Positions 47,230-64,000 of a stretch of DNA of 64,000 nt are shown here, in pieces. Made by a program: the position numbers and the translations under genes. The notes beneath the pieces were generated by a model. That model saw nothing but the letters and a program-made list of their open reading frames with translations, was not told where the DNA came from and searched no databases. Positions within the stretch are counted from its first letter, which is position 1, and the number at the start of each line of letters is the position of its first letter. Source of the DNA: Acidobacteria bacterium Ga0077534 (lineage in GTDB: Bacteria; Acidobacteriota; Blastocatellia; Pyrinomonadales; Pyrinomonadaceae); NCBI GenBank assembly GCA_001464455.1, contig LNEI01000008.1, positions 62,001 through 126,000 on the forward strand, written 5' to 3'.

Positions 47230-50200
47230 TTAGTCTACGACTGAGATGGTCTTGGCGATTGGATCAACGGTGAACTTGACGAGCCCGGTTTCAGAGCCGC
47301 CAGCCAAGCCTCTTCGTTTATCAGTCGCCCCGCCTTCACGGGCCGATTCCGTTGTAGAACCTGTCGCCGACGCAAAGCCGGCGGTCCCGGTTAATACGTT
47401 AGCCTTGACCCGGGCCGTGAAGCTGAACAAAACAGTATTCGGATTATTGAACCGCAACGTCTTATTGCCGCTCTCTTCGCCCCCAATAAAGTCCAAGCCG
47501 ACCAGTTGAGAGTAGTCGAAGAATGCCGGCGTCGTTGTTCCATTGCCACCGTTGTCAGCATTGCTGACCGTAACTGAATTTCCGGCCGACTGAATGGAAA
47601 CTATCTCAAATCGTACGTTTGGATAAAAGATCGTCGTCGACTGGTTCCTCAGGGCGGTGACAAGCACCGTCGATCCCGCAGGAAAAGTGATGCTGCGATT
47701 GACCGCTCCGATCTGTGCGGTTGCGTCTACCTCAGTTCTTCTTGAGACAGTTATTGCCTCAACATTGCTCGGTAGCGTTACGAATTTGCCGATTCGGCCC
47801 GGGGTTATCGATCGGATACGGTAGCTCCGGGTGCCGTCAGCAACATTCGAGAAGCTAGTGGCGGTGGTATTCCCGTCAACAGTACGGACCACTGTGAAAT
47901 TCACGCCATCCGTTGATTCTTCAATCTCGTATGCTTCTACGCTGCCTCGTGGTGCCCACGTGAGTGAATAGTTGCCATCGAAGTCGAATCGCTGAGTTCC
48001 AGCCGTAAAGTCGGACGCAAACTGCTGCACGACGGGTGCGGCTCCGCCTGAGAGTATCGTGCTTTCTATCGTGAAGTCGGTGGGACCGTTTGCCCAGCCG
48101 TACGCTCGATAAATGTAGGTCCCAGGAATCGTGGTATTGACCGCAATCCGCTCAGGCCCGATACCATTGCCGGATGAGCCGATTTCATTGCCGTTTGGAT
48201 CGTAAAGAAGGAAATCGAGGTCGGGCAATGCTAATCCCGCTTCAGGAACAGCCGTCATCGACCAATCAAGAGTTGCGTCGATCTTCAACCCTGAAGGTCC
48301 AACCTGAAATGGAACATCAACGTAGGTTGCATTCGAAGCTACGAACACGTTGTTGTCTCGCTGCGTACCCGCGTCACCTGCAAGCACGGTTCCCGAAAAT
48401 GTCGTTGTCTCAGACGAGGCAACCTGATCTGACGGCAACGATGCGGTCGCCTGAAGATACAATGGCATCCTCAGAGTCTGACCATTGCCGTTCGCAACGA
48501 CGTACCACTGGAATTGTTTGGTGGCGGTATCCCGAACGACGTTACCGTCGATCGTGATCGTCGAAGTGAAGGTGGTGCTTCCGCCCGGCGGGACACTAAC
48601 GCTCGATGAGCCTACCGATGTGGTAACGCCTGCGAGGTTGGTTGCACGGTTGTTGACGGTTGAAAGATTGTATGTACCACCCTGGCCCGACGTATCGCGG
48701 ATCGTAACCGTCACCTGCCGGGTGTTCAAAATACGATTATTCAGAATCGCCGTTTCACCGAATGAGTGGCTCGCGAGGATGCCAGGTGTGTCGATTCCGT
48801 CGCCGACCACGCCCATTAGTGCTTTAGCATCGACTGCGGCTTTGATGTCGATCAAGCCGCCACCTTGTTCGTTGACAGAATCCGCAGCAGTATTTGCCTT
48901 TGGTACTCCCGTGCCGGTACGAAGGTTAGTCGCCGTGTTTATAAGCGCCGCACGGATCATGTCAGGGCTGTAGTTTAGGTGGGCCTGTTTGACGATTGCG
49001 ACCGCACCAGCTACCTGTGGTCCCGAAAACGAAGTTCCGTTTGCCGAAATATATCGTGACGGATCCATCATCGAAGCTGCTGGTGCTCCGAGCGGGCTCG
49101 TTGCCGAATGAATAGCTACGCCCGGTGCAGTTACGTCTGGTTTGACCTGCCCCAATCCCAATACCGGACCCCGTGAACTGAAGCCCGCGGTTTCGCCAAC
49201 AAATACGTTGCTTAGGAATGGGTTCAAACGAATATTCAATTCCGAGATTGCTCCATCTGGCGGATCAATCGCGTTATCGTCAGTTGAGGACAATGCATCA
49301 ACCAAAATTTCGCCGTCGCTGGGAGAAACGGTCGCACAGGGAATCGAAGAGTTGACCGCCGTCGGATTAGTCGTTGTGGAGATCAGGATCATCGCGGATG
49401 CCCCGGCGATCGCCGCGCGGTTGCATCTATCCGCAAAGGTTGCTGATACGGGTCCAGCGTTCTTGACAAGTGCGATCCTGCCTGTGACCGCGACAGGGTA
49501 TGTCAGAAGCGGATTATTGACCATGACGTAACGCCGGCCGATCACTGCTGACGGTGGATTCGGAGTGCCAGCCATAGGGAACAGTTTGATCCGATCAAAT
49601 CCGGCGAGGTCAACCGACCAGTTAGCGTTTGCGGCACCGGGATGAGTCGTTGCACCAACCGCGATGACATGGCGTCCGGCAGCGGGAGCTCCGATCGTGC
49701 CTTCGCCCGGACCGGAGTTACCCGCCGAGGCGACAACGGTGGTTCCCAACAGGGCGGCGTTGCTGGCCGCTACTGAACTTGCTGAGTCGGGACCGCCGAC
49801 GCCGCCGAGGCTTAGATTAATAACGTGAGCCACTGGCTTTGGCTGTAAGGTCAAAGTCACGGGCGAGACCGAATCTTCGATAGCAAGGATCGTCGAAGCA
49901 TTGACGCAGCTTCCTGCCGCCGTACAAACCTTGTAGCCCATAAGCCGTGCCTGAGGAGCGATGCCGTGGAGTCGGCGGTCGTCGGCTGTTCCCGGGATGA
50001 GGTCAGCACCGGGAGCGAATCCTAGATAACCAGCGGCGTCGGCCGAAGCGTGAGTGCCGTGGCCAAAGTCGTCGATTAGGCCACCGGAAAAGGATAGATA
50101 GTAAATGACCTTTTGATTTGAATTGGTGGCGGCAGTTGGCGGGAGTAGTCCGAGACGCGGCGGAGTCGGATCGCCGCCGAACATCGGATGCGACCAGTCG

Positions 50201-50826
50201 ATACCCGTATCGAGAACCGCGATGTTGATGCCTTGTCCCTCAAAACCTTCGCGATGATTGTCAAAAGGTGTCAATTCGGCAACCTGGCCGTAATTTGCCG
50301 GAGCGTTCAGGTAAGGGACGCTCTTATCAAGCAGCACACGCAGATAATCGTTGTTATGAACGGTTTTAACTTCAGGCATGCTCTTGATCACAGCGATAGC
50401 AGCGGCCGGAACTTTGAGCGTGACCCCGTTGAACACGAGATTGAATCGGAAGTCGGCCCGGCCGGCCGTTGAACCGTCGTAGTTCGGAACGTCTATCCCG
50501 TCGATTTCGTAGCTAATACCGCGGGCAGATAGGGCAGCAAGGAATTGGTCTTGGGAACTTTTAACCGAGTTCCGATAACTCTGCAATTGCTCGGCCGATA
50601 CTGTACCGCCTTGCCTTTCAGTTCGGGCTTTCCAAACTGCTGCCGGATCGCCCCTGAGTTCAACGATAATCGAACTCGCGATGCCCGACGCACCTGCCTC
50701 TCTCAACATTACGTTAAAAAGGAGGGCCGTCGTGGCAATGAGTCCGACCGCGATGGCTGTCACGAAAAAGCGTTTCGTGCGAAAACTCCTTTGTGATTTA
50801 CTTACCGCATCATATCTTTTCATCAT
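47230..50826 (-). CDS. secreted subtilisin-like serine protease 1 (S8, PA insertion)
   Basis: A 1198-residue exoprotease with a basic start, a signal helix (about 20-42) and an inhibitor-like propeptide. The S8 triad is Asp206 (LDTGIDWSH), His259 (GHGTHAS) and Ser599 (GTSFSGPQVAG). A PA-type insertion lies between His and Ser (TGRIALVKNAGP...AGASAMILI). Later come a PPC-type beta domain and a fibronectin-like part. The final about 150 residues share a domain with the M36 protease at 53810, ending GLVKFTVDPIAKTISVV. Two ATGs (50826 and 50823) follow GGAG. Its promoter carries the CTCAA repeats, about 122 bp upstream. Confidence 0.92.
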   Translation of the reverse strand: MMKRYDAVSKSQRSFRTKRFFVTAIAVGLIATTALLFNVMLREAGASGIASSIIVELRGDPAAVWKARTERQGGTVSAEQLQSYRNSVKSSQDQFLAALSARGISYEIDGIDVPNYDGSTAGRADFRFNLVFNGVTLKVPAAAIAVIKSMPEVKTVHNNDYLRVLLDKSVPYLNAPANYGQVAELTPFDNHREGFEGQGINIAVLDTGIDWSHPMFGGDPTPPRLGLLPPTAATNSNQKVIYYLSFSGGLIDDFGHGTHASADAAGYLGFAPGADLIPGTADDRRLHGIAPQARLMGYKVCTAAGSCVNASTILAIEDSVSPVTLTLQPKPVAHVINLSLGGVGGPDSASSVAASNAALLGTTVVASAGNSGPGEGTIGAPAAGRHVIAVGATTHPGAANANWSVDLAGFDRIKLFPMAGTPNPPSAVIGRRYVMVNNPLLTYPVAVTGRIALVKNAGPVSATFADRCNRAAIAGASAMILISTTTNPTAVNSSIPCATVSPSDGEILVDALSSTDDNAIDPPDGAISELNIRLNPFLSNVFVGETAGFSSRGPVLGLGQVKPDVTAPGVAIHSATSPLGAPAASMMDPSRYISANGTSFSGPQVAGAVAIVKQAHLNYSPDMIRAALINTATNLRTGTGVPKANTAADSVNEQGGGLIDIKAAVDAKALMGVVGDGIDTPGILASHSFGETAILNNRILNTRQVTVTIRDTSGQGGTYNLSTVNNRATNLAGVTTSVGSSSVSVPPGGSTTFTSTITIDGNVVRDTATKQFQWYVVANGNGQTLRMPLYLQATASLPSDQVASSETTTFSGTVLAGDAGTQRDNNVFVASNATYVDVPFQVGPSGLKIDATLDWSMTAVPEAGLALPDLDFLLYDPNGNEIGSSGNGIGPERIAVNTTIPGTYIYRAYGWANGPTDFTIESTILSGGAAPVVQQFASDFTAGTQRFDFDGNYSLTWAPRGSVEAYEIEESTDGVNFTVVRTVDGNTTATSFSNVADGTRSYRIRSITPGRIGKFVTLPSNVEAITVSRRTEVDATAQIGAVNRSITFPAGSTVLVTALRNQSTTIFYPNVRFEIVSIQSAGNSVTVSNADNGGNGTTTPAFFDYSQLVGLDFIGGEESGNKTLRFNNPNTVLFSFTARVKANVLTGTAGFASATGSTTESAREGGATDKRRGLAGGSETGLVKFTVDPIAKTISVVD

Positions 50827-50930
50827 TTTTCTCCAATAGTTGAATATTTAATGACAGCCGCCCATTCCCATAGTCTCCACGAGGGGTAAATTAGAGTCAG
50901 TTCAAAAGGGCCGATTCCGTGTCAGTTTGT

Positions 50931-50994
50931 AAGTTATCAAGGGCTGGTTGAGTCAAGATTGAGGCGGGGAGCAAAGACTTGAGAGAAACTTGAG
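50931..50994 (-). promoter_or_regulatory. CTCAA-repeat promoter of subtilase 1
   Basis: On the minus strand four CTCAA boxes (start bases 50994, 50983, 50963, 50952) are spaced 11, 20 and 11 bp. TAACTT (50936-50931) follows exactly 11 bp after the last box. Expected start of transcription is near 50924, leaving a leader of about 98 nt. The most distal box touches the terminator of subtilase 2. Confidence 0.75.
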
Positions 50995-51028
50995 AAAAAA
51001 AGAGGTGAGGCCGCAATAGCCTCACCTC
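50993..51028 (-). terminator. intrinsic terminator of subtilase 2
   Basis: GAGGTGAGGC and GCCTCACCTC form a perfect 10-bp stem; on the minus strand it is followed by a T run. It lies 40 bp past the stop codon. Confidence 0.9.
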
Positions 51029-51067
51029 AAGAATGCTCGTATCATTTAACTTTGCTGCCTGTACGTT

Positions 51068-53563
51068 TTAATCACCCTGCGAGCTTTTAATCGTGAAATC
51101 GACTGCTTTTGTTACATTGCCCCGGATTCTGAAGAAGTAGCTTCCTGGCTGCAGGTTTTCAAGCTGGATCTCATCGTCCTCAGCAGTGGCGATGACGTTG
51201 CCATTAGCGTCCAATATTTCAAAGAATATACGCTGATTGCCGTGGTTCTGCTTTATCTCGGCCTCAAGGCCGCGTCTTCGTAGCTGGAACGGAATTCTGA
51301 CCGACGATTGTCCTGGCTGTATCGTACCTGAGTAACGCTCCTCAAAGTCGTCATTGTTATTTCCATTGCCATTGCCACCGCCCGGACGAGGAGTCTGTGT
51401 CGGTGATGGCGATGGAGTGGCGGCTGGCGTCGGACTAGGTGCGGGCGTAGGCGTCGCTGACGGTGATGGCGATGGAGTGGCGGCTGGCGTAGGCGTGACT
51501 GTCGGACTCGGTGACTGCGATGGCGTGGGAGTCGCCGTCGGAGCGGGTGTTGGGGTAGGCGTTTGCGGAGTTGGTGTTGGCGTAACTTCAGGTGACGCCG
51601 CAATTTCAAAGTCAGAGCCGGATGCCTGATCGGAGTTCAAGAGGAGGCCGCCTGTAAGGGATGAGCCGATTAGTAATTGAGCTTCCGCTTTTGTGGTTGT
51701 TGAGGTTGTGCCGACTACATTACTTCCGACGGCTGCATTGATTTTATTCAGTGAGAGCCTGATGGTTATCTGATTACCGTTGATCTCGCCGCCGTCCACC
51801 GCTCCGAGCGTCTCCTGATTCTGCGTTCCGGTCGGAAGAGTTGTGATCTTGCCGTATTCGTAAGTGGTGGCGGTTTCATCAACCGACGCCGAGACAAATA
51901 CCTCGGTGGCTCCGAATGCAGAGGTCATCGTCCAACGCATGTTTGGCGTGCGAACCGAGGCATCTGATAGGAGCAGGCGGTAGATTATTTGATCGTTGGC
52001 CGCGTCGTAAGTGAAATACACCTCGCGTATGTCCTGAGCGGTTGTGCCCAGCTGGTCATCGGCTGGATCGGATATCTGCGGAGCATTCGGATCGTCCGAC
52101 GGGAAAAGATTCGCAGGGTGCGGTACGGCCGAGAATAACTTGGCCGCACGAACCGCGTTGTGGGCATCGACGTATCCCGCGCCGACTACACGCTCCTCAA
52201 ACGGCATCGGCGTTGATGTCTGACGTAAAAGCGTAACTACCTCATCGGGGGTCAGAAGCGGGTTCGCCTCCATCATCAGGGCGATGATTCCGCTCACTTG
52301 AGGAGTCGAAAAACTTGTTCCCTGTGAGGTTGTATAAAACGGCAGAAACGCCGGTGGTATGGTCGAAAGGTCATTTGCTCCTACGAAAACAGGAATGGTT
52401 CCAGCCAAATTTGTTACGCCAGGTCCCTTCGACCGGGTGCTTTTGATGTCTACACCCGATCCGATGATATCGGGACGCAGGTTTGGGGCAACTGTTTCAT
52501 CGGCTGGCTGGCCCGCTGTGTCACTGCCGGTACCGTTATTATTGCCTCGGGAAGAAAATCCTGCCGGAGTTCCGAGTCCGCGTTTCTCGCCCGCAGCGAC
52601 CGAAATGACCCACGGAGCGACGGAAAATGGATTGATAACGTCCGGGGCGTCACCGTCGTTACCGGCAGCAAAAACCACGGTAATGTTGCGGTCGTGCATC
52701 GTCCGCGTTGCGACGTTGATCGGATCGTTTGGATCGTAAGGCAGATTAGCAAGAGTTGTACCGTAGGAGTTGTTGCAGACGCGGATATTGTAATCAAATT
52801 GGCGAACAAGCGTATACTCCATGGCTTGAACGATCGCATATGTTGAAAGCCCTGCATCGTTACCGGCGTTAATGCCGATCAGCTTGGCACCAGGAGCCAT
52901 TCCCTTATAGAGCCCGCCTGAAGCAGCACCCGTTCCGGCTGTTACACCCGCGCCGAACGTGCCATGGCCGCCCTCGACGTCGGTCATCGGCTGATTTTCT
53001 ACGGGAACTATGGGCAAGAAACCAGCCGGGAGCTCAAGCGGCACTTCGGCCGTCGCAAAAAAAGTGTTCTGAATAACATTCTGTCCGAGCTGAAGATCTG
53101 GGTGAGTTGCATCGATACCTGTATCAATGTAAGCAACCCCGATATTTTTACCGGTTACCGGAAGGCCCTGATTTGAAGAGGTTACCTGCGAATCACGGAT
53201 TAGATTCTCGACGCCGGAAATCGTACGCCCTTCCCGGTCGAACAGCTCGAATCTGCGATTTGCAAACATTGACCGTATTCGGCTGTTATTTCGAAGCGAA
53301 TTAAACTGCGAGCGGTTGATCTTGGTGAGAACCATGGGAAGCTGCACTAGATAGCGTCCACCAGTTATTCCAAGCGACCTTAGCATTAGAAAGTCCGAAT
53401 CGGTCGGGCGACTCTTAAAAGTGATGATGACCGGCGTCAGCGAGAGCGGTGAGGCGTTGACCTGGGTTGAGAGCAATCCGTCCACTGACGGAGCTGCAAA
53501 GATCGTCAGATTTACTACCAGGGTTATCGTTGCTAACCCGAGTGCATTAATTAGCCGTTTCAT
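51068..53563 (-). CDS. secreted subtilisin-like serine protease 2 (S8)
   Basis: An 831-residue exoprotease. GGAGGA precedes the ATG at 53563, and a signal peptide follows (about 5-25). The triad is Asp147 ([10 protein letters not shown]), His in GGHGTFGAG and Ser in [12 protein letters not shown]. The region after the catalytic domain contains a beta domain, then a Pro/Thr/Ser-rich spacer of about 65 residues, then a PPC-like C-terminal domain ([12 protein letters not shown]...GSYFFRIRG). The spacer DNA contains an exact 30-bp repeat at a distance of 60 bp. It resembles subtilase 3 more than subtilase 1. Confidence 0.92.
51401..51490 (-). repeat. 60-bp-period repeat in the subtilase 2 spacer
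   Basis: A 30-bp stretch beginning CGGTGATGGCGATGG occurs at 51401 and again, unchanged, at 51461. It encodes part of the Pro/Thr/Ser-rich linker and could slip, changing linker length. Confidence 0.75.
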
Positions 53564-53609
53564 CGTGTTCCTCCGAGTGGTCCGAGCGTTCCTGTGATTG
53601 TCCATTGTG

Positions 53610-53653
53610 AGAGTACTGCCGACTGCTTGAGCAATACTTGAGGTGGACTTGAG
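53610..53653 (-). promoter_or_regulatory. CTCAA-repeat promoter of subtilase 2
   Basis: Three CTCAA boxes on the minus strand (start bases 53653, 53642, 53631) at exactly 11-bp intervals. TACTCT (53615-53610) follows 11 bp after the last box. Start of transcription is expected near 53603, 40 bp before the ATG. Confidence 0.78.
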
Positions 53654-53730
53654 GGTTTTCTCACAGTAGGGTCAGTGCCGATTAATTGATCATTCATAAG
53701 CCTTGCGATTCACGGCGAGTAAGCGCGAAT

Positions 53731-53764
53731 AAAAAATGGGTGAAGTCTCGAAAGACTCCACCCA
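53731..53764 (-). terminator. intrinsic terminator of the M36 protease gene
   Basis: TGGGTG-AGTCT and AGACT-CACCCA arms with six T following on the minus strand, about 46 bp past the stop codon. Confidence 0.88.
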
Positions 53765-53809
53765 TAGCACGATCACTAGTTTTTGTGATCCCGTTGTATC
53801 CAGGTTAGA

Positions 53810-56800
53810 TTAACGAAGCACGACAAAGGTCACGCGATTCGTCAACGGATTGACGGTGAAGCGGAACAGTCCCGCGACCGGATTGGTCGTTGCCGGATTG
53901 ATTCCGCCGCCACCGCTGGTCCGCGTCCCGGCGTTCTCGTTCGGTGAACCGTTTGGCAGAACCTGCGTCGTTGCGATGTTAAAGGTGGTCGGGCCGTTGG
54001 CAAAACCCAGAACACGCATGACATAAGTCGTGTTCGGCTGTACTCCTGACGATACAAACTCGGTCGCCGTTGCTCCCGCTGACCTCGTCAATATCTGCCC
54101 GTCCATGGTTCTCAATTCGAAATCCAAGTCAACCGAGGTCAACGAGGTAAGTGTGGCCTCAAGTGCAAGAGCATCGGATTGAGTCGTGATTAAGACGTCT
54201 TCCCATGTAATTCCCTTGAATAATGGATCGCCCCATGTCGCACCGGTTGCCTCGCCGCCGGCTAGAGTTCCCGTGAAGCCCTGGTTGTAGAGCGAGAATA
54301 CGGTTGGTGGTGGCGGGTTCGACGTTCCGTCTCCGCCTTGCGTACCGGTTCCAACCGTATTTCCGGCGAACGCATTACCGAAGATGCGAGCGTCAAAAGT
54401 AAACAGCTGCGTCATCGGATTGTTGAATTCCACTCGTTTTGTCGACGATTGTCCACCGAGTGGTAAGGTCTGGTTGTAGACGAAGGTGTTTCCGGCCGCG
54501 TCAGCATTTTTTACCGTCACCGTCGGGTTCGAGATGCTGACGACCTGGAATTCGATCGGCGTGTAGACCGTCTTATCTGAGGAGAATGCTCCTCGAGCGT
54601 TGGTTAGTTTGTTATCAAATGACGTGATGCCGCCAGTGAAGCTGATGTTCGACAGGGCCGAATCGATCTGAGCAGTCAGATCTTGCCGTGTCTGAAGAGC
54701 CTTTGAGGAACCAGACAGATCTGAGAAACCAACTTGCCCGGTGGTGTTGACGCCGATCGCACGAACAACATATTCGCTATCGAACAGATTATTCAGTCCT
54801 GCCGGCGTGAACACTTCCTGGACCTTACCGTTGTCAACATATGTCGTAGCACCTCCATATGCATAACCTACATGGCGGAAACCAGTCGTCGAGCTGTCGC
54901 CGTCGTTGTAGGCCCGCTTGCCGTTGGGCTCACGCTGGCCGGCGAGTGCGGTTTTGCGTTTGAGGACCTGATAGGCGAGCGTTCCGGGGACGCTGTCCCA
55001 CGATACGCGAAGCGAGCGAGTGGAATCAGGCGTTACGCGAATGTTTGTTGGTACTGCCGGTGCAGCCTGGTTGCCGACGAACGGCTGAACCTGAGTCGAG
55101 ATCGTTGCTTTGCCGCCCGAAAATTCAACAGCATTGACGCCAAGTTCTTTCGAAGCAAACATCTGCTCGATCAGTGCTCGGTGCTTGCCAGGAGCGTCTG
55201 AATCTGTAGGATCGCTGGAATACAGCAACTGGTCAGCGACGATCATAGCGTCACGCGATTTAACCAGGGTGTCAGGTGATGTTGTTCCGAGAATGTACAT
55301 CGAACCGAGGAACTGACGCTCGAAAATGTTCGTTCCCTTGGTGATTGGTTTGAGTGCCGCACCGTCCTCAGGACGCGGGCGTTTGAACTGCGTGTTCTGC
55401 GGATACATTTTGTTTAGCATCGTCCGAATGTCCCACATGGTCGACATGTAGATCTCGCCATCGTAATGCTCTTCGAAACTTGGTGCTCCGTCGATGATTC
55501 GTGTCGCGATGTCGGAATATTTCAGTGAGGAATTCGCGCTGCGGATATAGCCGATCGAATCAGGATCGCGACCGAGTTCACGGTATCGTTGACGTAGTTT
55601 GAACGCGTTAACCACGTAGTCGCCAAGGCTCGGATTATCCGTTATCGTAAACGCCCACATGTCGGCTTGGCCTTCGTTAAGAGCACTGCCTTCGACGCCT
55701 TCGAGACCGGCGATAGGCGAGGTGATTGCGTGCATGCCTTCGTGGTACGGAACTGTTCCTTCAAGGGCTAGGTCATTGAATAAGAAACCGTGTCCGTACG
55801 ACGTTGGATTTACGACGACCGGCGACTTCGTGGCGGTGACGCCTTCGATGATGCTGGTTAGGTTCAAGGCAAACGCGTTATCGAGACCGAGCACCTTCTG
55901 TGCGAACTCAGGATCCGTTGCCGGTGGATAGCTGCCGCCCGCAATCGGAGTAATTACGTCCGGGATATGGACCGTTGCCGGAAGAGGCGTCGTCTTATTT
56001 GGGTAGGTATCCGGAAATGCTCCCTGCGAACCGAAGGTTGTAGGGTCGCCAGCGATGTGCAGGTTGTCTACATACTCAAGTAGGTACGTCGTGAAAAAGA
56101 ACGCGTTAATCTCGTCCTGATGCTCAGCAGGCTCGGCAAACTGGTCGATTTCGTTTGTCCTACCTTCAAAAGCCGCTGGATCGTCTTTCGAAAAATGCCA
56201 TGTGCCAAGCGATGCCTGCGCGAACGGCTGTTTGGTCGCGAGTGCGTTATTAACTACCGTGTTCGTTCCCGTTAGGGTTCCGTTCAATCCGGTAAAGACA
56301 TTTGAAGCATCGAATTTGCGAAGGTTCACTCGAACCTGATCACACGGCTTACCACCACACGTGCTGATGATTCCCTGATCCTTCAATTCCTGTGTGATCC
56401 GCGGGTATTTTGGATAGATATCAGCCGTCATTGGATGGACCGCATTCTGATAATTTACATAATCCTTTCGACCGACTATCTCGCCCGTCGTTGCGTCAAC
56501 CGAGATCATGTAAAGGCCGAACGGGTTCATCGAAAACTTCGCGACCTTGTATATAAGCTTGTAACCATCAGCGGTCGGATAGATACTGAGCTGCGGTTCG
56601 AGATTAGCTATCGGAGCGGCCTGAGCCGTCAGAGCTGCTGATCCGGCCTGAAGAAGGTTCGCGACAGCCGCTGGGATGTTAGCCGCAAAGCGTGCGAGAT
56701 CAACATCGGCCCGGTTTTTCGCCTGTTCGGCGGTTAGGGTCGGCTGCGTGTTGACGTTGACGTCCCGGAAGAACGGCCCACTCGCCATAACTACCTGGTT

Positions 56801-57337
56801 GTTACCGTTCATTACGAGGCCGATGCCACCGTCGCTGACCGGAACACCGTTGAAGACCTGTTGAAAGCGTATTAAATGACCGCCGAGTGCTGCTTTTTCA
56901 CTGAACACGCGAACGTTGTTCATGTCTGAGAGCCCGAAAAGCGAGGCATTTTGATTTAGAAAGGCGCGGCCTGCTTCTTCAGGCGTTCCTGAGAACTGCT
57001 GGGATGCGAAATCGTATATCACATCGGGTGAACCGCCGAAATCATTCCAGCGCACCGTGAGGTTTGGGGCGTTCGAAGCAGCTTTCAGATTGTTTAACGC
57101 TCCGAGCTGCTCACCAGTGGCGATCCGAATGCTCGGCAGATTGCGCGATTGATTGAGATCGAAATTTGGTGCCGAACGACGGTACATATTAGCGATCGGG
57201 TCGACCGCTCCCGGAGCCGCCTCGGAACTCGTACTCGGCTGAAGTAAAAACGCGGTTGCCGCCGCGGCTGTCAACGCCGCAAAGATTGTGAACCGGGTCA
57301 CCCATCGTTTCGTTGTTTTGTTTACCTTGCTTTTCAT
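53810..57337 (-). CDS. secreted M36 (fungalysin-like) metallopeptidase
   Basis: A 1175-residue zinc exoprotease. Signal peptide (about 12-40), an FTP-type propeptide (about 60-290, e.g. NVRVFSEKAALGGHLIRFQQVFNGVPV), then the catalytic domain with HEGMH near residue 530 (HExxH zinc site) and the downstream zinc-ligand region ALNEGQADMWAF. Later parts are fibronectin III-like (PAVPTNIRVTPDSTRSLRVSWD). The last about 200 residues share the C-terminal domain of subtilase 1, including VKNADAAGN, VEFNNPMTQLFTFDARI and the final GLFRFTVNPLTNRVTFVV. GGGGGA precedes the ATG. Its promoter has the CTCAA repeats. Confidence 0.92.
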   Translation of the reverse strand: MKSKVNKTTKRWVTRFTIFAALTAAAATAFLLQPSTSSEAAPGAVDPIANMYRRSAPNFDLNQSRNLPSIRIATGEQLGALNNLKAASNAPNLTVRWNDFGGSPDVIYDFASQQFSGTPEEAGRAFLNQNASLFGLSDMNNVRVFSEKAALGGHLIRFQQVFNGVPVSDGGIGLVMNGNNQVVMASGPFFRDVNVNTQPTLTAEQAKNRADVDLARFAANIPAAVANLLQAGSAALTAQAAPIANLEPQLSIYPTADGYKLIYKVAKFSMNPFGLYMISVDATTGEIVGRKDYVNYQNAVHPMTADIYPKYPRITQELKDQGIISTCGGKPCDQVRVNLRKFDASNVFTGLNGTLTGTNTVVNNALATKQPFAQASLGTWHFSKDDPAAFEGRTNEIDQFAEPAEHQDEINAFFFTTYLLEYVDNLHIAGDPTTFGSQGAFPDTYPNKTTPLPATVHIPDVITPIAGGSYPPATDPEFAQKVLGLDNAFALNLTSIIEGVTATKSPVVVNPTSYGHGFLFNDLALEGTVPYHEGMHAITSPIAGLEGVEGSALNEGQADMWAFTITDNPSLGDYVVNAFKLRQRYRELGRDPDSIGYIRSANSSLKYSDIATRIIDGAPSFEEHYDGEIYMSTMWDIRTMLNKMYPQNTQFKRPRPEDGAALKPITKGTNIFERQFLGSMYILGTTSPDTLVKSRDAMIVADQLLYSSDPTDSDAPGKHRALIEQMFASKELGVNAVEFSGGKATISTQVQPFVGNQAAPAVPTNIRVTPDSTRSLRVSWDSVPGTLAYQVLKRKTALAGQREPNGKRAYNDGDSSTTGFRHVGYAYGGATTYVDNGKVQEVFTPAGLNNLFDSEYVVRAIGVNTTGQVGFSDLSGSSKALQTRQDLTAQIDSALSNISFTGGITSFDNKLTNARGAFSSDKTVYTPIEFQVVSISNPTVTVKNADAAGNTFVYNQTLPLGGQSSTKRVEFNNPMTQLFTFDARIFGNAFAGNTVGTGTQGGDGTSNPPPPTVFSLYNQGFTGTLAGGEATGATWGDPLFKGITWEDVLITTQSDALALEATLTSLTSVDLDFELRTMDGQILTRSAGATATEFVSSGVQPNTTYVMRVLGFANGPTTFNIATTQVLPNGSPNENAGTRTSGGGGINPATTNPVAGLFRFTVNPLTNRVTFVVLR

Positions 57338-57389
57338 TTTATCCCCCAGAAGTTTTGTTGTTTAGAGTTTGGTTAAATCTATAGTCTGG

Positions 57390-57454
57390 ACTTTATCTTC
57401 GGTGGCTTGAGAAACACTTGACCGCCCTGTTTTGAGACTTGAGGAAAACTTGAA
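57390..57454 (-). promoter_or_regulatory. CTCAA-repeat promoter of the M36 protease
   Basis: Minus-strand boxes at start bases 57454 (TTCAA), 57443 (CTCAA), 57422 (GTCAA) and 57411 (CTCAA), spaced 11, 21 and 11 bp. TAAAGT (57395-57390) follows 11 bp after the last. Start near 57383, 46 bp before the ATG. An extra CTCAA lies at 57436. Confidence 0.78.
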
Positions 57455-57532
57455 TGGAACTGGTATCGATATGCGTTTGTGGCTGTTTCAAAAACGTAAT
57501 CGGGTATGCATTTCCCGTGCTGCGCAATAACA

Positions 57533-57579
57533 AACGCGGAACCCGACGTGGACGAGTTCGTCCGATCGGGTTCCGCGTT
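57533..57579 (-). terminator. long inverted repeat downstream of subtilase 3
   Basis: AACGCGGAACCCGA and TCGGGTTCCGCGTT are perfect 14-bp arms around a 19-base centre that can itself pair. It lies about 145 bp past the subtilase 3 stop codon. The T run after it on the minus strand is weak, so it may act as a terminator, an mRNA stabiliser or something else. The rest of the 57338-57722 gap holds the M36 promoter and no gene. Confidence 0.5.
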
Positions 57580-57722
57580 GTTAATTCGTTCCCAGCCCCT
57601 CGCTTGGAACGAAATTTTGATCGTCAATTGCAGAACTCGCACGAAGTGTCAGGAATTTTCGGCCACCGAACTTTTGATGAAATCGGAAAATCCTTTACCT
57701 CGTGCGGTCGCCCCCTTGTAAA

Positions 57723-60242
57723 CTATCCGCCGATTGAGAACAATCCGCTGAACGTATTCAGCCGGGCCGCAAAGTCCGCTCGATTGATCGCAGTTCCGGG
57801 ATCGAATCTCGGTCCCGGAAGGACAATAAATTGTCCCGGTCCGGTCTGTCGAACCTCGGCAGGAAAGGCCTCGAAGATTCCCTTGTTTATCGCAAGTTGG
57901 ACGTAGCCGCGAAGTGCGGCAGGGATCTGCGAGTTGTCGGTCAAAGCAACACCACCGGAAGTAGCCGTTGATCCTGCGAGATTTCGGGCGGCGGTATCGT
58001 GGCCGAGTGCCTTGACTAAAGCGACCGCGAGATCGAGGCGGTTAATCTGGCCTGTCGGTTGAAAGACGTTTCCGGTAAAAGCGATCATCCCGGTTGGAAC
58101 GAAATCATAATCCCGTAACGTCGAGCCTTTAGCGGTAACTGCTTCAGCAATATTCAACAATTCGCCCGATACATCACCAAATTTCGGCGTCGCTCCCAAA
58201 GATTGGCGAAGCGATGTGTTGAGCACCAGCGATCGTGCGAGATCTTCACGCGTCACAAGCGACGCCGGTCGGAATGTGCCGTCCGCGTAGATATCGATCA
58301 CTCGGTTTTTGATCGCAGCTTCTATTGCAGCCTTTTGAGGATGCGACGCCAAATCGGCGATATTCGGCAGGATAAATTTAACCTGCGTCACCGTTCCATC
58401 AACGGGTCCCGGAGCAGCTCCCTGGGTTGGCAACGATGCCTGCGGAGCCGCAGCCAAGCTGCGTGCACCACGAACTTCCAGCGTCCACTGTCCGGCGACC
58501 GGATTGTCGACTACGATCTGACGCTTGTTGCTGCCAATGACCGGAAAGTCGATGGCAGTTGAATAGGTGAGGCCGTTAGGAGCCGTAAGCCGAATACCTA
58601 CGAGGTTGCCCGTACCTTCTTCAGCAGCGGTATCAACCGTCGCTGCGACGTCGAGCACATTCATGTCCGGACTCACCGTAAACGTGGTTGCGTTGGTTGA
58701 AGCCGGGCCGGAATTAGCAGGGTTAAAGTCGATGTGAAATGTCTGCTGAGCAGGACGCTCTTCGCCAAAAACAGCATTGTAACTTACATCCTGGAAACTG
58801 CGGTAATCCTTCCCGCGGTTGAAAACTTTATCGACTGCCGCATGGGCGTTAACATGGCCTGCTCCGACTTCATAGTCATCATATCCCGGCATTTTCGATG
58901 CCGTGTCTACGAGAATCTGTTTGATCTCGTCCGGCGTTAGTGTGATGTCGGCGTCAAGCATTAGAGCTACGACACCAGCAACATACGGTGTGGCCATTGA
59001 TGTTCCGGAGATCTGTGTATAGAAGGGGATAAGCCCCGGAGCGAGCTCGGTATCGGCGGTGAGGCCGTTTGCGGTAAGGTTCAACGTCGACCGCGTAGAG
59101 GCAATCGCAGAGGTAAATCGTCCAGCGTTCGCTTCGAATGCACGACCGGTTCCAGGTGCTACGAGAGTTGGTGCATCGTTATCGTTTAAAGGGTTATTGT
59201 CACTAAGACGTTCCGCACGAGGCGTGCCGCGTGACGAGAAATCGGCCAGCGTACCCTCTTTTGTTCCTGCACCAACGCCAATCACCCATGGAGCCTGTGC
59301 GTAAGGGCTCAGCGTGTCTTTTGCAGCACCGTCATTCCCGCCAGCGAAAAGAACCATCATGTTCCGCTCGTAACCGATACGGCTTGCGATCGTGATGGGA
59401 TGATCCGGATTAAATTCGCCTCCGCCAAGCGGGCCGTAGCTATTCGTCACAACGCGGATGTTGTAATTGAACTGGTTTGCGAGCCCCCATTCCCAAGCAC
59501 CGAGTGGATTGACCACCAAAATTCCCGCACCGAGCCCGGCGCCGACGATCTTTGCTCCGGGAGCTACGCCAGAATAAAGTCCGCCCGAACGAACGCCCGA
59601 TCCGCCGACGATGCCCGCGCAATGCGTTCCGTGGCCGACGGTCTCATCCGTGTTCTGGATATTTTCGATGGTGACGTTAGGCGTGAATCCCTGAACAGTG
59701 CTGGTTGCAAGCACCGGATGCACATTCTGTACGACCTTCGTGCCGAATGGCAGATCCGCGTGGGTCGCGTCGACCCCGGAGTCAATCACGAGGACCGAGA
59801 AATTACCGGCACCGGAAACAGGCATCCCGCCATTTCTCGTCGTCATAGCACTGTCGGACTGGAGTTTGGCGACACCGCCCATTATTCGGGCCTGATTCAT
59901 GTAATAAATCAACGGATCGTTCGACCAAATGGAGCGGACCGCGGCATTATTTGCCAGTGCCCGTACCTGTCCGACGGTCATCGGCTGAGCTACCATGCCC
60001 AGGGTCGGAAATGTCTGCCCGCCGGTAACGCCGACACCTCGCAACACGTTCAAGTGCGAGTCCTGAAGCCCGTTGTTCGTATTAAACGAGACAATGACCA
60101 TGCCAGCCGAGGCGGCGTCGCCGAGCGTTGCGAGCTTGGTCTGCAACGATGGTGCCAGCGTCGCCGCCTGTGCCGCAAACGCGAACGCGGCCACCGCGAC
60201 GACGGCGATAGTAAATTTGCCGAGTATTTTATTGATCTTCAC
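57723..60242 (-). CDS. secreted subtilisin-like serine protease 3 (S8) with SLH domains
   Basis: An 839-residue exoprotease with signal peptide (about 5-27). The triad is Asp in VIDSGVDATH, His in GHGTHCAG and Ser in SGTSMATPYVAG. A P-domain/PPC-like part follows. The C-terminal about 170 residues hold S-layer-homology modules (IDIYADGTFRPASLVTREDLARSL, FQPTGQINRLDLAVALVKAL, FDPGTAINRADFAARL), which usually bind cell-wall or surface polymers, so this protease is probably held on the surface. The GTG at 60242 has GGAGGGGAG upstream; the longer frame to 60407 would overlap the promoter repeats and is rejected. Confidence 0.9.
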   Translation of the reverse strand: MKINKILGKFTIAVVAVAAFAFAAQAATLAPSLQTKLATLGDAASAGMVIVSFNTNNGLQDSHLNVLRGVGVTGGQTFPTLGMVAQPMTVGQVRALANNAAVRSIWSNDPLIYYMNQARIMGGVAKLQSDSAMTTRNGGMPVSGAGNFSVLVIDSGVDATHADLPFGTKVVQNVHPVLATSTVQGFTPNVTIENIQNTDETVGHGTHCAGIVGGSGVRSGGLYSGVAPGAKIVGAGLGAGILVVNPLGAWEWGLANQFNYNIRVVTNSYGPLGGGEFNPDHPITIASRIGYERNMMVLFAGGNDGAAKDTLSPYAQAPWVIGVGAGTKEGTLADFSSRGTPRAERLSDNNPLNDNDAPTLVAPGTGRAFEANAGRFTSAIASTRSTLNLTANGLTADTELAPGLIPFYTQISGTSMATPYVAGVVALMLDADITLTPDEIKQILVDTASKMPGYDDYEVGAGHVNAHAAVDKVFNRGKDYRSFQDVSYNAVFGEERPAQQTFHIDFNPANSGPASTNATTFTVSPDMNVLDVAATVDTAAEEGTGNLVGIRLTAPNGLTYSTAIDFPVIGSNKRQIVVDNPVAGQWTLEVRGARSLAAAPQASLPTQGAAPGPVDGTVTQVKFILPNIADLASHPQKAAIEAAIKNRVIDIYADGTFRPASLVTREDLARSLVLNTSLRQSLGATPKFGDVSGELLNIAEAVTAKGSTLRDYDFVPTGMIAFTGNVFQPTGQINRLDLAVALVKALGHDTAARNLAGSTATSGGVALTDNSQIPAALRGYVQLAINKGIFEAFPAEVRQTGPGQFIVLPGPRFDPGTAINRADFAARLNTFSGLFSIGG

Positions 60243-60286
60243 CTGTATCTCCCCTCCAAAAATTTTGTTATTCAAAAACAGTTTGA

Positions 60287-60351
60287 AGAATAAAGGAGAG
60301 GCTTTGAGAAATACTTGAGCGGCGTTCTCAAAGGGTTGAGGGAAACTTGAG
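60287..60351 (-). promoter_or_regulatory. CTCAA-repeat promoter of subtilase 3
   Basis: Minus-strand CTCAA boxes at start bases 60351, 60340, 60319 and 60308, spaced 11, 21 and 11 bp. TATTCT (60292-60287) follows 11 bp after the last box. Start near 60280, 38 bp before the GTG. Confidence 0.8.
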
Positions 60352-60477
60352 ACGAGTGGAGTCCTAGGGTTGTCTCGGGCTTTCAGCCTCTGATGTTGAG
60401 GAGACAATGTAGTAGCGCTAAATCAATTGAGACCTGGAATAAAGACGCGGAATGCGGGGGGCGCCAGTTAATTAGGC

Positions 60478-63400
60478 CTATTTAAGAAGTTCCTGGACAA
60501 GTCGTTTCGTTTCCGCCGAGGGCTGAATACCGAGTTCCTGCTTGAGGAGTTCGGTCATGTCTTCGTAATGCTTACGGACCGCGGCTGGTTTGCTCTGGGC
60601 GGCAAGAACCTTCATCGTTAGCCGGTGCAGATCCTCGCGATAGGGATCGATAATAAGGATCTGTCCCGCGAACTTCAGAGCGTCGGTCCATCGTTTCTGT
60701 GTGACAGAAAGCTTAGCGAGAGCATTTAGCACGCGGGAAAATTGTTCCTGATAGAACGGACGCTGCTCTTCGGCCCAATCTTCGTAAAGACCTTCCATAA
60801 ACTCGCCACGATAGAGATCGTAAGCGGATTCGAGAGTTTTTCGCAGCTCATCATCGTCTTTGTCGCGTTTCGCGTTCTCGGCAGCCGCGATAAAGGCAAC
60901 AAAATCTTCGGTATCGATTTGATACGTGAATTCGGGATTTAATTGGTAAGATCCGTCACGAAAGACGATGAAATTCTGTTTGAACGCCTGGCGGCTATTT
61001 AGAGCCTTGCGGATGTGCGAGATTGTTGGATGAAAGTTCTTTTCGATCGCGGCGAGTTCATCATCGCCCCAGAAAGCTTCGATTAAAACATCCTTCGGGA
61101 CGCGCCGGTTTTTTCGGGTTGATATATAACAAAAAATGTCCCGGGCCCGGCGAGTCGTCCACGCGTCTGGAGCAAATGGTTTGCTTGGGTCGCGGAAAAT
61201 CTCGACATGCCCCAAAACTCTGATCGTAAGATCGGTGACCGTCGCGTCGAGTGTCTGAATTCGTAAGTCCGGAGTAGGGAGACTAGGCTGATTTTCCAGT
61301 TTAGTCTCTCGACTCTCGACAATCTCGCGGAGATCCGGTGGCAGTTTTTCAAGAATATCCTCATATCCGAAAATGCCACGATTGCGGCGAATCTCGGTCT
61401 TGAGCCAGTACTCATAATCGAATCGGGCTGAGAGGTCGAGCACTCGTTGAATCGGAGAGACCATTTCCTTGTGTAAGCCTGAAACGAAGAGCGTTTCGGC
61501 TAGGAGCATCAATGCGAGAGACTCGTCGTAGTAATAATTTTGACCGTGGAAGAACTCCAGAACCCCATGGATTCGCGTGGCCAACCCGTCGGTTTTCCCT
61601 TCGGCTAGATCAACCTGGCACAAACACAATTGAGCAGTATTCGACGTTAACTCAGGATGACGTTGAGACCTCGATTCGATCAATGTCTCCAGAAGGGCTC
61701 GGGCCTTTACCGTATCGCCCCGTAATAGATTGAACCTTGCGCGTTCTTCGTTCAATTCCCGAGTCGCGAGATCGACGCCAGCATCGTCATAAGCGTTCAA
61801 GGCTCGTTGGTAGAATTCGGAGGCGTGTGAGAAATCCTGTCTTTCCCGGTAGAAATTCCCGTATGTTTCAAATATCTCCGGCAGAAGGGATTTTAAGTTA
61901 AACAGCTGACACAACTCTAGGGCAAGTTCGAGATGCTTCTCAGTCTTTTCAAACTCACCCCGATAGAGATGCAGACGCGCGACATTTAAATGGCCGATTG
62001 CTTCTTGAGGAAGGTGTTTACTTGACTGGCCTTCTTGAAAAATGCGGTTGAACCAGCGAATTGCTTCACCAAAGTCACCACGAAAACCCGGTGCGAGGGC
62101 AAGGTTATGAGCAATTAGCCGAATGTGCTGATCGTTCGATTGCGCCTCGGCCAGCTCTAAAGCTACACGAAACTGCTGCTCAGCCTCATTCCAATTGCCT
62201 TCCTGGATTAGGCAGAGACCACGTGTGTTGAGGCATTTCAGATACGTTTCCGATTCCGTAGATACGAGTTTTTCCGCTTTCTCGAGCAGCGACAGAGCCT
62301 CTTTGGGCTTCGCTTTGCGTCTGGCAAGACTTGCGAGCGAATGCAGAGCTTCGGCCTCGGCGGCGGCATCCTTTTGCTCAGCAAAAAGCTTTACGGCCCG
62401 GTTGAGGAGATTGGTCGATTTTGTCGTTTCGCCTTGCAGCCGCGCGATTTCCGCCTGATGAAGCAGGGATCGGGGATGGCGTTCCAATATCTCAAACGGA
62501 ACCTTCTCCACGAAAGAAGCAAGGGAGGTGATGGCACCCGCGGCGATCCACTCGTTTCCCCGTTTTGCGATCACCTCGGCAGCACGTTCAAAATTCTCCG
62601 CGTCGAGCAGAAATGGTAAAGCCATCTCTGATTGTCTATTTTGTAAGAAGATTTCAGCTATGCGATTTCGCTCCTGCGAGATCCGGGCAACTCCGATCTC
62701 AGACCTTAGACGCCGCTGAAGAAAACCGCGAAACAACGGATGAAACCGGTACTCCTCGGCTGTGCCTCCGTCGCCCGCAACACTCAGGAAAATATTCTTC
62801 TCAACAAGATCTGGTAATGCCGCGGAACACCGCATGTCGGGAAACAGCATGCTGCACTGATCGAGCGGCAATGATTCTAGTAGGGACAAATACAGGAGCA
62901 GTTTTTGCGAATTTTCTTCTTCCCGCGTAAAGACCTCTTCGGCAAAGTAGTCGAAGATATCTTTTTCTGACCGTTGCAGGATTTCAGACAGGTCGAGTAC
63001 CGCTGCCGAACCTTCGCCATCAATTTCTTTCTCCGCGATCTGCCGAACGAGCTGCAGGGCCGTGATCCAGCCGTGCGTCCGATTCCGATACTCGAGCACT
63101 TGATCGTTTCGCAATTCGACATTTAGCGTATTGCGAAAAAGCTCCTTAACCTCCTCATCGTTGAACAGCAGATCGTCGCGTGTAATTACCATCGCGGCCG
63201 CTTGCGTTCGCCGCTTCATAATCGCGAGTGGCGGCAGATCTCGGGTCGTGATCATCAAGTGAAAATGCTCAGACGAATACTGCAATATACGGTCGACGAT
63301 CTTGTGAACGACCGTGTCCGGACCAATGTGATGATAATCGTCGAGAACCAGAATGAAAGGCTGTTCGATCACCCGAAGTATTTCGTTTGATAGCAGATCG

Positions 63401-63753
63401 GCCGCACGCTCGGGAAATCGAAGAATGTCCTCGTTCGCCTCGGAGAGATATGGGAAAAGTGCCTCGCCGAAACTCGGCGCAATATTCTTGATCCCTTGAG
63501 CCACATAGTTTAGGAATACAATCGGGTCGGCATCGGTGTGATCGAGTTGGTACCAAACGGACGGGCGCGATTGCCCGCGGAGAAAATCGGCGATGAGCGT
63601 GGTTTTGCCGCATCCGGCATCAGCGGTAACCAATGTGACAGGCGATCCCAAATTAGCAGTCAGTCTTTCGATCAGGCGCGACCGTTTCAGAAACTCCGAA
63701 ACGGGGCGCGGCGGAAGCAGTTTTGTCCGCAGAAAGAAATTAGAGTGCTGCAT
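60478..63753 (-). CDS. MalT-like NTPase/TPR regulator with C-terminal SARP-BTAD module
   Basis: A 1091-residue transcription regulator. The N-terminal STAND-type NTPase has Walker A TADAGCGKTT (44-51) and Walker B ILVLDDYHH, as in MalT. TPR repeats fill about 400-760. The C-terminus is an OmpR-like winged helix (about 841-935: LTIRVLGHVEIFRD, RRARDIFCYISTRKNRRVPKDVLIEAFWG) and a BTAD domain (about 945-1090). This is the DNA-binding module of SARP regulators, known to bind direct repeats with 11-bp spacing just upstream of -10 boxes. It is encoded next to four protease genes whose promoters have exactly such repeats, so it is the prime candidate activator. Its own promoter lacks the repeats. 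Confidence 0.92.
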   Translation of the reverse strand: MQHSNFFLRTKLLPPRPVSEFLKRSRLIERLTANLGSPVTLVTADAGCGKTTLIADFLRGQSRPSVWYQLDHTDADPIVFLNYVAQGIKNIAPSFGEALFPYLSEANEDILRFPERAADLLSNEILRVIEQPFILVLDDYHHIGPDTVVHKIVDRILQYSSEHFHLMITTRDLPPLAIMKRRTQAAAMVITRDDLLFNDEEVKELFRNTLNVELRNDQVLEYRNRTHGWITALQLVRQIAEKEIDGEGSAAVLDLSEILQRSEKDIFDYFAEEVFTREEENSQKLLLYLSLLESLPLDQCSMLFPDMRCSAALPDLVEKNIFLSVAGDGGTAEEYRFHPLFRGFLQRRLRSEIGVARISQERNRIAEIFLQNRQSEMALPFLLDAENFERAAEVIAKRGNEWIAAGAITSLASFVEKVPFEILERHPRSLLHQAEIARLQGETTKSTNLLNRAVKLFAEQKDAAAEAEALHSLASLARRKAKPKEALSLLEKAEKLVSTESETYLKCLNTRGLCLIQEGNWNEAEQQFRVALELAEAQSNDQHIRLIAHNLALAPGFRGDFGEAIRWFNRIFQEGQSSKHLPQEAIGHLNVARLHLYRGEFEKTEKHLELALELCQLFNLKSLLPEIFETYGNFYRERQDFSHASEFYQRALNAYDDAGVDLATRELNEERARFNLLRGDTVKARALLETLIESRSQRHPELTSNTAQLCLCQVDLAEGKTDGLATRIHGVLEFFHGQNYYYDESLALMLLAETLFVSGLHKEMVSPIQRVLDLSARFDYEYWLKTEIRRNRGIFGYEDILEKLPPDLREIVESRETKLENQPSLPTPDLRIQTLDATVTDLTIRVLGHVEIFRDPSKPFAPDAWTTRRARDIFCYISTRKNRRVPKDVLIEAFWGDDELAAIEKNFHPTISHIRKALNSRQAFKQNFIVFRDGSYQLNPEFTYQIDTEDFVAFIAAAENAKRDKDDDELRKTLESAYDLYRGEFMEGLYEDWAEEQRPFYQEQFSRVLNALAKLSVTQKRWTDALKFAGQILIIDPYREDLHRLTMKVLAAQSKPAAVRKHYEDMTELLKQELGIQPSAETKRLVQELLK

Positions 63754-63853: not shown

Positions 63854-64000
63854 TCATGCAGTCAACATCGCGCCTCGTTCTTCGACAAATTGTAGCAGTT
63901 TTGAAATCCGTCCGAATGACTTGCCGTGTGCCTCTTTCGCTCGTAAGCGTGTTAGGCATATCGAATCGAAAAGTGCTTCGGTTTCCGTCATATTAAAGGC
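63854..64000 (-). CDS. C-terminal part of an unrecognised protein, runs off the right edge
   Basis: An open frame on the minus strand ends with TGA at 63854 and is still open at the window edge. From a possible ATG at 63991 it gives 45 residues (MTETEALFDSICLTRLRAKE, then HGKSFGRISKLLQFVEERG). It could be a complete small protein or the tail of a larger one. No family recognised. Confidence 0.4.
   Translation of the reverse strand, partial: AFNMTETEALFDSICLTRLRAKEAHGKSFGRISKLLQFVEERGAMLTA

Follow-up and report, generated by a model that had tools for sequence, protein, structure and literature searches.

What switches on a row of four secreted-protease genes in a member of the Acidobacteriota, and is the large regulator encoded beside them responsible? 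The genes, for the subtilases SubtA, SubtB and SubtC and a metalloprotease of family M36, lie together with the gene of the regulator, here called REG, in a window of 64,000 nucleotides from Acidobacteria bacterium Ga0077534 (C8:62001-126000 of the 4.2-Mb genome). Regulators of the SARP kind are best known for the control of antibiotic production in Streptomyces. Here, judging from comparisons of sequences and a modelled fold, a STAND/TPR activator of the MalT-like type that carries its SARP head at the C-terminus is predicted to regulate its own operon and to bind the promoters of secreted proteases and switch them on, a reading to which we assign a probability of about 0.86.

Promoter motif and its association with REG

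The initial annotation of the window had described direct CTCAA repeats with an 11-bp period upstream of all four protease genes. The overall layout holds, except that two of the four boxes of the M36 promoter read TTCAA and GTCAA, and the 20-21 bp given as the separation of two pairs is the start-to-start distance from box 2 to box 3 rather than a gap. In all four promoters the -10 box begins precisely 11 bp past the final CTCAA, as had been noted (Table 1). Exact CTCAA-N6-CTCAA occurs six times in the window, always at the promoters of SubtA, SubtB and SubtC, against 0.14 occurrences expected, and none of 100 shuffled sequences reached six; when one mismatch is allowed, both M36 pairs are added, among 11 window matches in total (4.28 expected). 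Across the genome, the exact pattern extended to the -10 box (CTCAA-N6-CTCAA-N11-TAnnnT) has four matches, three inside the window and one 0.8 kb past its edge, all within C8:112931-126790, the 14 kb around REG; the reversed control has one. The motif is thus, as the earlier proposal implied, not equally common elsewhere in the genome. One mismatch raises the count to nine, six of them in the cluster, where the M36 promoter and the promoter of the REG operon are the additions. The reversed pattern then gives seven, so that the signal outside the cluster is at chance level. The same architecture continues beyond the window edge in two back-to-back promoters, and the genome holds six motif promoters altogether: those of the three subtilases, of M36, of a divergent secreted protein of 267 residues, and of the operon that joins a stand-alone NTPase gene to REG. 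Among the other one-mismatch matches, the one at C8:136557, which covers a ribosome-binding site and a start codon, appears fortuitous, as do two on C18. A separate scan for canonical sigma-70 promoters gave 12 hits in the region against 10.7 expected, none overlapping the boxes or -10 of the four sites; one chance-level hit overlaps the M36 start codon.

The architecture recurs at most loci that encode close relatives of REG. A search of named genomes with the regulator, which by its method recovers close relatives only, yielded 43 loci (714,773 bases), each in a metagenome-assembled genome whose title gives Acidobacteria or a subgroup thereof (14 Pyrinomonadaceae, 3 Blastocatellia, 3 Chloracidobacterium and 23 with no finer name; Pyrinomonadaceae lies within Blastocatellia in the NCBI taxonomy), with best-segment identities to REG of 46-75%. 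These loci contain 94 CTCAA pairs at 11 bp, distributed over 38 loci, against 2-4 at any other spacing from 9 to 14 bp (two at 10 bp, four at 12 bp) and a single pair of the control AACTC at 11 bp. Secondary spacing peaks at 20/21, 31/32 and 42/43 bp correspond to the double-pair layout, and TAnnnT follows at a gap of 11 in 55 of 90 terminal pairs, with at most three at any other gap. Alignment of 79 of 80 sites (one chance match was dropped) defines the repeat unit as CTCAAGTWTTT, in which positions outside the selection pattern are still conserved (G 96%, T 97%, T 91%), whereas the columns flanking the boxes are near random, mostly below 0.2 bit.

Motif and regulator also travel together across genomes, which bears out the co-conservation anticipated for relatives. 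With the pattern exactly as originally proposed, all 14 genomes with full-length REG (>800 bits) among 60 carry the motif, versus three of the 46 others, with one site each; since the reversed pattern is found in 7 of the 60, one match each, these single matches are at control level. Within the class, a refined pattern marks 55 of the 58 genomes that have REG and 8 of the 104 that lack it (Fisher p = 1.2e-30, kinship ignored; reversed control 0/162). Because the loci used to derive it overlap with these genomes, some named loci being the very same contigs, the comparison of 14/14 with 3/46 is the cleaner test. The proteases follow the same distribution. At E 1e-60 or better, SubtD, a further subtilase encoded beyond the window edge, is found in exactly the 14 REG-positive of the 60 genomes, and close homologues of M36 and of SubtC in 8 and 13, all REG-positive; no relative in this set keeps close homologues of M36, SubtC or SubtD and lacks REG, SubtA and SubtB not having been searched separately.

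Domain architecture and relatives of REG

The description of the adjacent 1091-residue protein as a SARP winged helix plus BTAD joined to a MalT-like NTPase and TPR sensor is borne out by profile and fold matches. Residues 10-384 match MalT (8bob, E 1.3e-24) and are followed by a TPR region (TPR_12, E 1.5e-21), whereas residues 844-1090 match AfsR (8hvr, E 9.8e-10) and contain BTAD (E 2.8e-22), so that the NTPase is N-terminal and the SARP domain (residues 841-1091) C-terminal. A model of the C-terminal part (pLDDT 92.7, from 35 sequences) superimposes on the SARP domain of AfsR with Z 21.0 and 3.5 A over 240 residues; EmbR follows at 18.2, and TPR proteins come next, at no more than 11.5. No LuxR-type helix-turn-helix is among the Pfam matches of REG, and its NCBIfam MalT score is 222.4 against a cut-off of 537. 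The Walker A pattern is matched by 39 of 40 NTPases and by none of 35 REG proteins, in which either the first Gly is Ala or the long N-terminus offsets the search window.

Ten residues in the recognition helix of REG, F-H-P-T-S-R-K-A-L-N, are invariant in 35 orthologues. P909 and H913 align with the base contacts T88 and R92 of AfsR, a replacement that is in line with the different box. In the one REG locus that lacks a CTCAA pair at the NTPase-REG operon (L135), whose promoter reads CCCAAGAATTAGCCAAG, CCCAAG and GCCAAG stand in place of the CTCAA boxes (L135:9846), and Tyr replaces His at the REG position that corresponds to AfsR R92. Another locus, L111, has Leu at this position yet keeps a one-mismatch pair; L135 fits a covariation of H913 with the box and L111 does not, so the two together give only a hint.

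These features place REG in the SARP/BTAD superfamily but in neither of the two families that it resembles. As in SARPs, a winged helix is followed by BTAD, the operators of which REG is the presumed reader are direct repeats of 11 bp, and the 3' repeat replaces the -35 element at about 8 bp from the -10 box: CTCAAG ends 10 bp before it, and the distance is 8 bp if the contacted unit spans 8 bp as in AfsR, a register that we assume. Large SARPs of the AfsR type are defined by an N-terminal SARP domain with NB-ARC and TPR after it (PMC10972967), and REG, whose SARP domain is not N-terminal, lies outside them. It likewise lies outside the MalT/LAL proteins, with which it shares the NTPase (NOD) and TPR and from which it differs in lacking the C-terminal LuxR-type helix-turn-helix.

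Comparison with characterised systems sharpens this picture. REG and its promoters resemble AfsR (PMC10936776) in the SARP fold, the side-by-side 11-bp repeats, the 3' repeat near the -10 box and the additional NTPase and TPR; they differ in the C-terminal position of the SARP head, the MalT-like type of the NTPase, P909/H913 for T88/R92, boxes reading CTCAAG rather than CGTT(T/C)ATCG, and secreted proteases as predicted targets. MalT, the STAND activator of the E. coli maltose regulon (PMC10427625, PMC6468293), has the same order of N-terminal NTPase, TPR sensor and C-terminal effector, although its effector is a LuxR-type helix-turn-helix and its partners are MalY, Aes or MalK rather than a MalT-like NTPase. 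The operators of PimR, SanG and PolR consist of CGGCAAG heptamers with 4-bp spacers, which repeat every 11 bp in runs of two or three (PMC3367932), and CAAG is common to CGGCAAG and CTCAAG; these regulators belong to Streptomyces antibiotic clusters, and PimR has an N-terminal SARP domain and a site that does not overlap the -35 element. The architecture of REG as such is not unique, since two Chloroflexota plasmid proteins annotated only as TPR proteins (QRN84570.1, WP_341472059.1) have the same order of MalT-type NTPase, TPR and C-terminal BTAD, albeit at about 25% identity and with no annotated protease within 3 kb on each side. The SARP literature that we found concerns antibiotic clusters of Streptomyces and other actinomycetes, and our search of it returned no SARP regulon in Acidobacteria or Chloroflexi and none of proteases, which is no proof of absence. 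What is new is the bacterial group, the sequence of the box, the predicted control of exoenzymes and the conservation of an NTPase partner. SARP-type promoter logic with a defined box and a predicted regulon of secreted proteases and other exoenzymes is seen here in Acidobacteriota known from metagenome-assembled genomes of soil and water. In our judgement, this gives an explicit promoter code to a group in which few regulons are known, and the loci form a natural series for the study of DNA recognition by SARPs.

The partner is a stand-alone NTPase that matches residues 17-207 of MalT (E 3.8e-8). Its gene lies directly upstream of REG in 40 of the 41 named loci with more than 1 kb of upstream sequence, and the motif precedes the operon in 39 of 40 loci, 37 detected by script and two (L110, L114) just outside the search range. 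At 18 of 28 sites, the NTPase reading frame opens 13-16 nt after the start of the -10 box, so its mRNA probably has next to no leader. MalT is inhibited by MalY at an oligomerisation interface (PMC10427625), and the free NTPase could, by analogy, modulate REG, which makes it a candidate for a new way of controlling a STAND activator. It is conceivable, although we regard it as rather unlikely, that the NTPase enters or caps oligomers of REG by way of their common NTPase fold while the TPR domain of REG senses protease-released peptides, such that proteolysis would feed back on its own transcription through the SARP head.

A few copies of REG deviate in their reading frames. In L137 (10975-17409, plus strand), REG and the next subtilase form one uninterrupted frame of 2144 residues, either a real fusion or an assembly error, and an open frame of 2168 residues is also recorded at G108:C272. 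L128 and L132 each have the regulator divided over two frames, possibly a broken copy or a sequencing error.

Predicted regulon and competing explanations

We propose that the MalT-like NTPase/TPR part would keep REG inactive at rest and that an inducer bound by the TPR domain would cause it to oligomerise, as in MalT. The C-terminal SARP heads would then line up next to one another on direct repeats of CTCAAGTWTTT with an 11-bp period, immediately before a -10 box that lacks its own -35 element, and recruit RNA polymerase as AfsR does. The predicted targets are SubtA, SubtB, M36 and SubtC, each with its own promoter, the 267-residue protein, from whose promoter SubtD, 146 bp further on, is probably transcribed as well, and the REG operon itself, which opens with the NTPase that may modulate REG. 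The proposal that REG activates the four proteases as a self-contained proteolysis regulon is thus supported by the restriction of the motif and its co-occurrence with REG, but the regulon exceeds four genes, and although it appears self-contained in this genome, unlinked genes for secreted hydrolases also have the motif before them in other genera.

Among 103 strict sites in the genomes added for the refined-pattern search, 44 are found within 20 kb of REG; the other 59 are not. An open reading frame (ORF) follows 56 of the latter, in 42 cases with a hydrophobic N-terminus. Since the crude secretion score is passed by 97 of 205 background ORFs, a minimum of 600 residues was also required; proteins of this kind follow 35 of the 59 sites and make up 16 of the 205 background ORFs, a contrast that is indicative only, given that taking the longest ORF starting within 400 bp of each site favours long ones. 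The putative unlinked targets include homologues of the cluster proteases, and 18 proteins chosen for Pfam searches, none above 177 bits to a cluster protein, comprise five peptidases (M12B, M36 twice, M4, S8), four proteins with BNR repeats, a glucuronyl esterase, a TonB receptor, a Calx-beta protein, two receiver-only response regulators and four proteins for which no family passes its cut-off, although one has a weak match to BNR. With such genes behind the unlinked sites, the regulon in other genera looks like a wider exoenzyme regulon. Small response-regulator-like proteins are encoded directly 3' of the motif in four loci (L182, L211, L212 and L123; the receiver domain is confirmed by Pfam for the first two) and could tie the regulon to a second signalling layer.

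These receiver-domain proteins 3' of unlinked sites in L182 and L211 would also suit another explanation, in which a different DNA-binding protein, for example a response regulator of the PhoB/OmpR type, reads the CTCAAG boxes and REG is just another target. Such regulators also bind 11-bp direct repeats, and the winged helices of the two families are related (Trans_reg_C matches REG at E 7.9e-4, below its cut-off). We nevertheless consider this improbable: OmpR-type regulators are expected in every one of these genomes, unlike the motif, which tracks REG (55/58 versus 8/104), and the loss of the CTCAA pair in L135 coincides with Tyr for His at the AfsR R92 position, a single case offset by L111. 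It is very improbable that REG is a repressor, or that the boxes are only architectural, with the cluster read from ordinary sigma-70 promoters. One SARP, Atr32, is reported as negative (PMC10972967), but at the position that a 17-bp spacer would give the -35 element the promoter profile reads AGTWTT, unlike a -35 hexamer, and the boxes occupy this place as they do in AfsR. Least probable of the three is that the repeats are conserved merely through block inheritance of the locus. SubtD, REG and the motif do coincide in the same 14 of 60 genomes, but the box flanks are near random while the loci match REG at 46-75%, and where a strict site is on another contig or more than 20 kb away from REG, the gene behind it can encode an unrelated protein, such as an M12B or M4 peptidase, a glucuronyl esterase or a BNR protein.

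Several observations weigh against activation by REG through the CTCAAG boxes. The genomes are related, so that the p-values overstate their independence, and co-inheritance of a cassette could explain part of the co-occurrence, but not the unlinked sites. Eight REG-negative genomes hold nine strict sites; low completeness could account for some of them (G085, 71%), but not for G131 (99%). Six of the nine sites precede ORFs with a hydrophobic N-terminus, homologues of SubtA and SubtB among them. Conversely, three of the 58 REG-positive genomes have no strict motif: G157 and G159, with near-motifs before the NTPase, and G091, where REG (L230) is found with neither NTPase nor SubtD and with two stray pairs that lack a fitting -10 box, one of them inside REG. 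Locus L101 has REG and neither NTPase nor a pair within 11 kb. Finally, of the six loci with distant REG homologues from remoter families of this phylum (about 31% identity, L224-L229), five have a SubtD-like subtilase next to the regulator and the other is on a contig that ends at REG; in the available stretches they have no stand-alone NTPase and no CTCAA pair, even beside the SubtD-like gene. Their residue at the H913 position is Phe, Leu or Ile, and a search upstream of the six for another 11-bp repeat found nothing convincing. As the regulator here adjoins a subtilase while the pairs are absent, the pairing of regulator and subtilase may be older than the CTCAAG code.

Layout of the cluster

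The features are listed in Table 1. For SubtB and SubtC, downstream start codons were preferred because the listed ORF starts (53605 in SubtB) precede the expected transcription start. Terminator-like hairpins number 24 in the region, near the 20.1 expected by chance. The 267-residue protein matches no family of Pfam or NCBIfam at the limits applied. SubtD begins with many GITLTGADG nonapeptide repeats, followed by the subtilase domain and a weak SLH match.

Table 1. Features of the protease cluster. Positions refer to the window and continue its scale beyond 64000; those preceded by L005 refer to that locus.
Feature	Position	Strand	Evidence
SubtA, secreted subtilase with PA domain, 1198 aa	47230..50826	-	PF00082 E 2.8e-39, PF02225; hydrophobic N-terminus
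SubtA promoter, two CTCAA-N6-CTCAA pairs, -10 TAACTT 50936-50931	50948..50994	-	sequence
Intrinsic-terminator-like hairpin 3' of SubtB, T tract abutting first SubtA box	51002..51028	-	11-pair stem
SubtB, secreted subtilase, likely start ATG 53563	51068..53563	-	PF00082 E 1.8e-34; start from sequence
SubtB promoter, three consecutive CTCAA boxes at 11 bp, -10 TACTCT 53615-53610	53627..53653	-	sequence
Terminator-like hairpin 3' of M36	53736..53765	-	13-pair stem
M36, secreted (fungalysin-type) metalloprotease, 1175 aa	53810..57337	-	PF02128 E 6.3e-11, PF07504
M36 promoter, TTCAA/CTCAA and GTCAA/CTCAA pairs, -10 TAAAGT 57395-57390	57407..57454	-	sequence
SubtC, secreted subtilase with C-terminal SLH domain, likely start GTG 60242	57723..60242	-	PF00082 E 3e-36, PF00395; start from sequence
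SubtC promoter, two CTCAA-N6-CTCAA pairs, -10 TATTCT 60292-60287	60304..60351	-	sequence
REG, 1091 aa: MalT-like STAND NTPase, TPR sensor, C-terminal SARP winged helix and BTAD	60478..63753	-	MalT 8bob, AfsR 8hvr, BTAD, fold match
Stand-alone MalT-like NTPase, 271 aa, 100 bp upstream of REG, same direction	63854..64000 in window (3' part); full gene 63854-64669	-	profile matches
NTPase-REG operon promoter with motif	64679-64711	-	one-mismatch motif match
Secreted 267-aa protein, divergent	L005:2868-3671	+	motif promoter 64758-64790 (+)
SubtD, 996-aa subtilase with GITLTGADG repeats, behind 267-aa gene	L005:3818-6808	+	subtilase domain; weak SLH match

At this locus (L005:2700-2800) and 13 related ones, the divergent promoters are 6, 25-26, 44-47 or 55 bp apart, distances that may hint at helical phasing.

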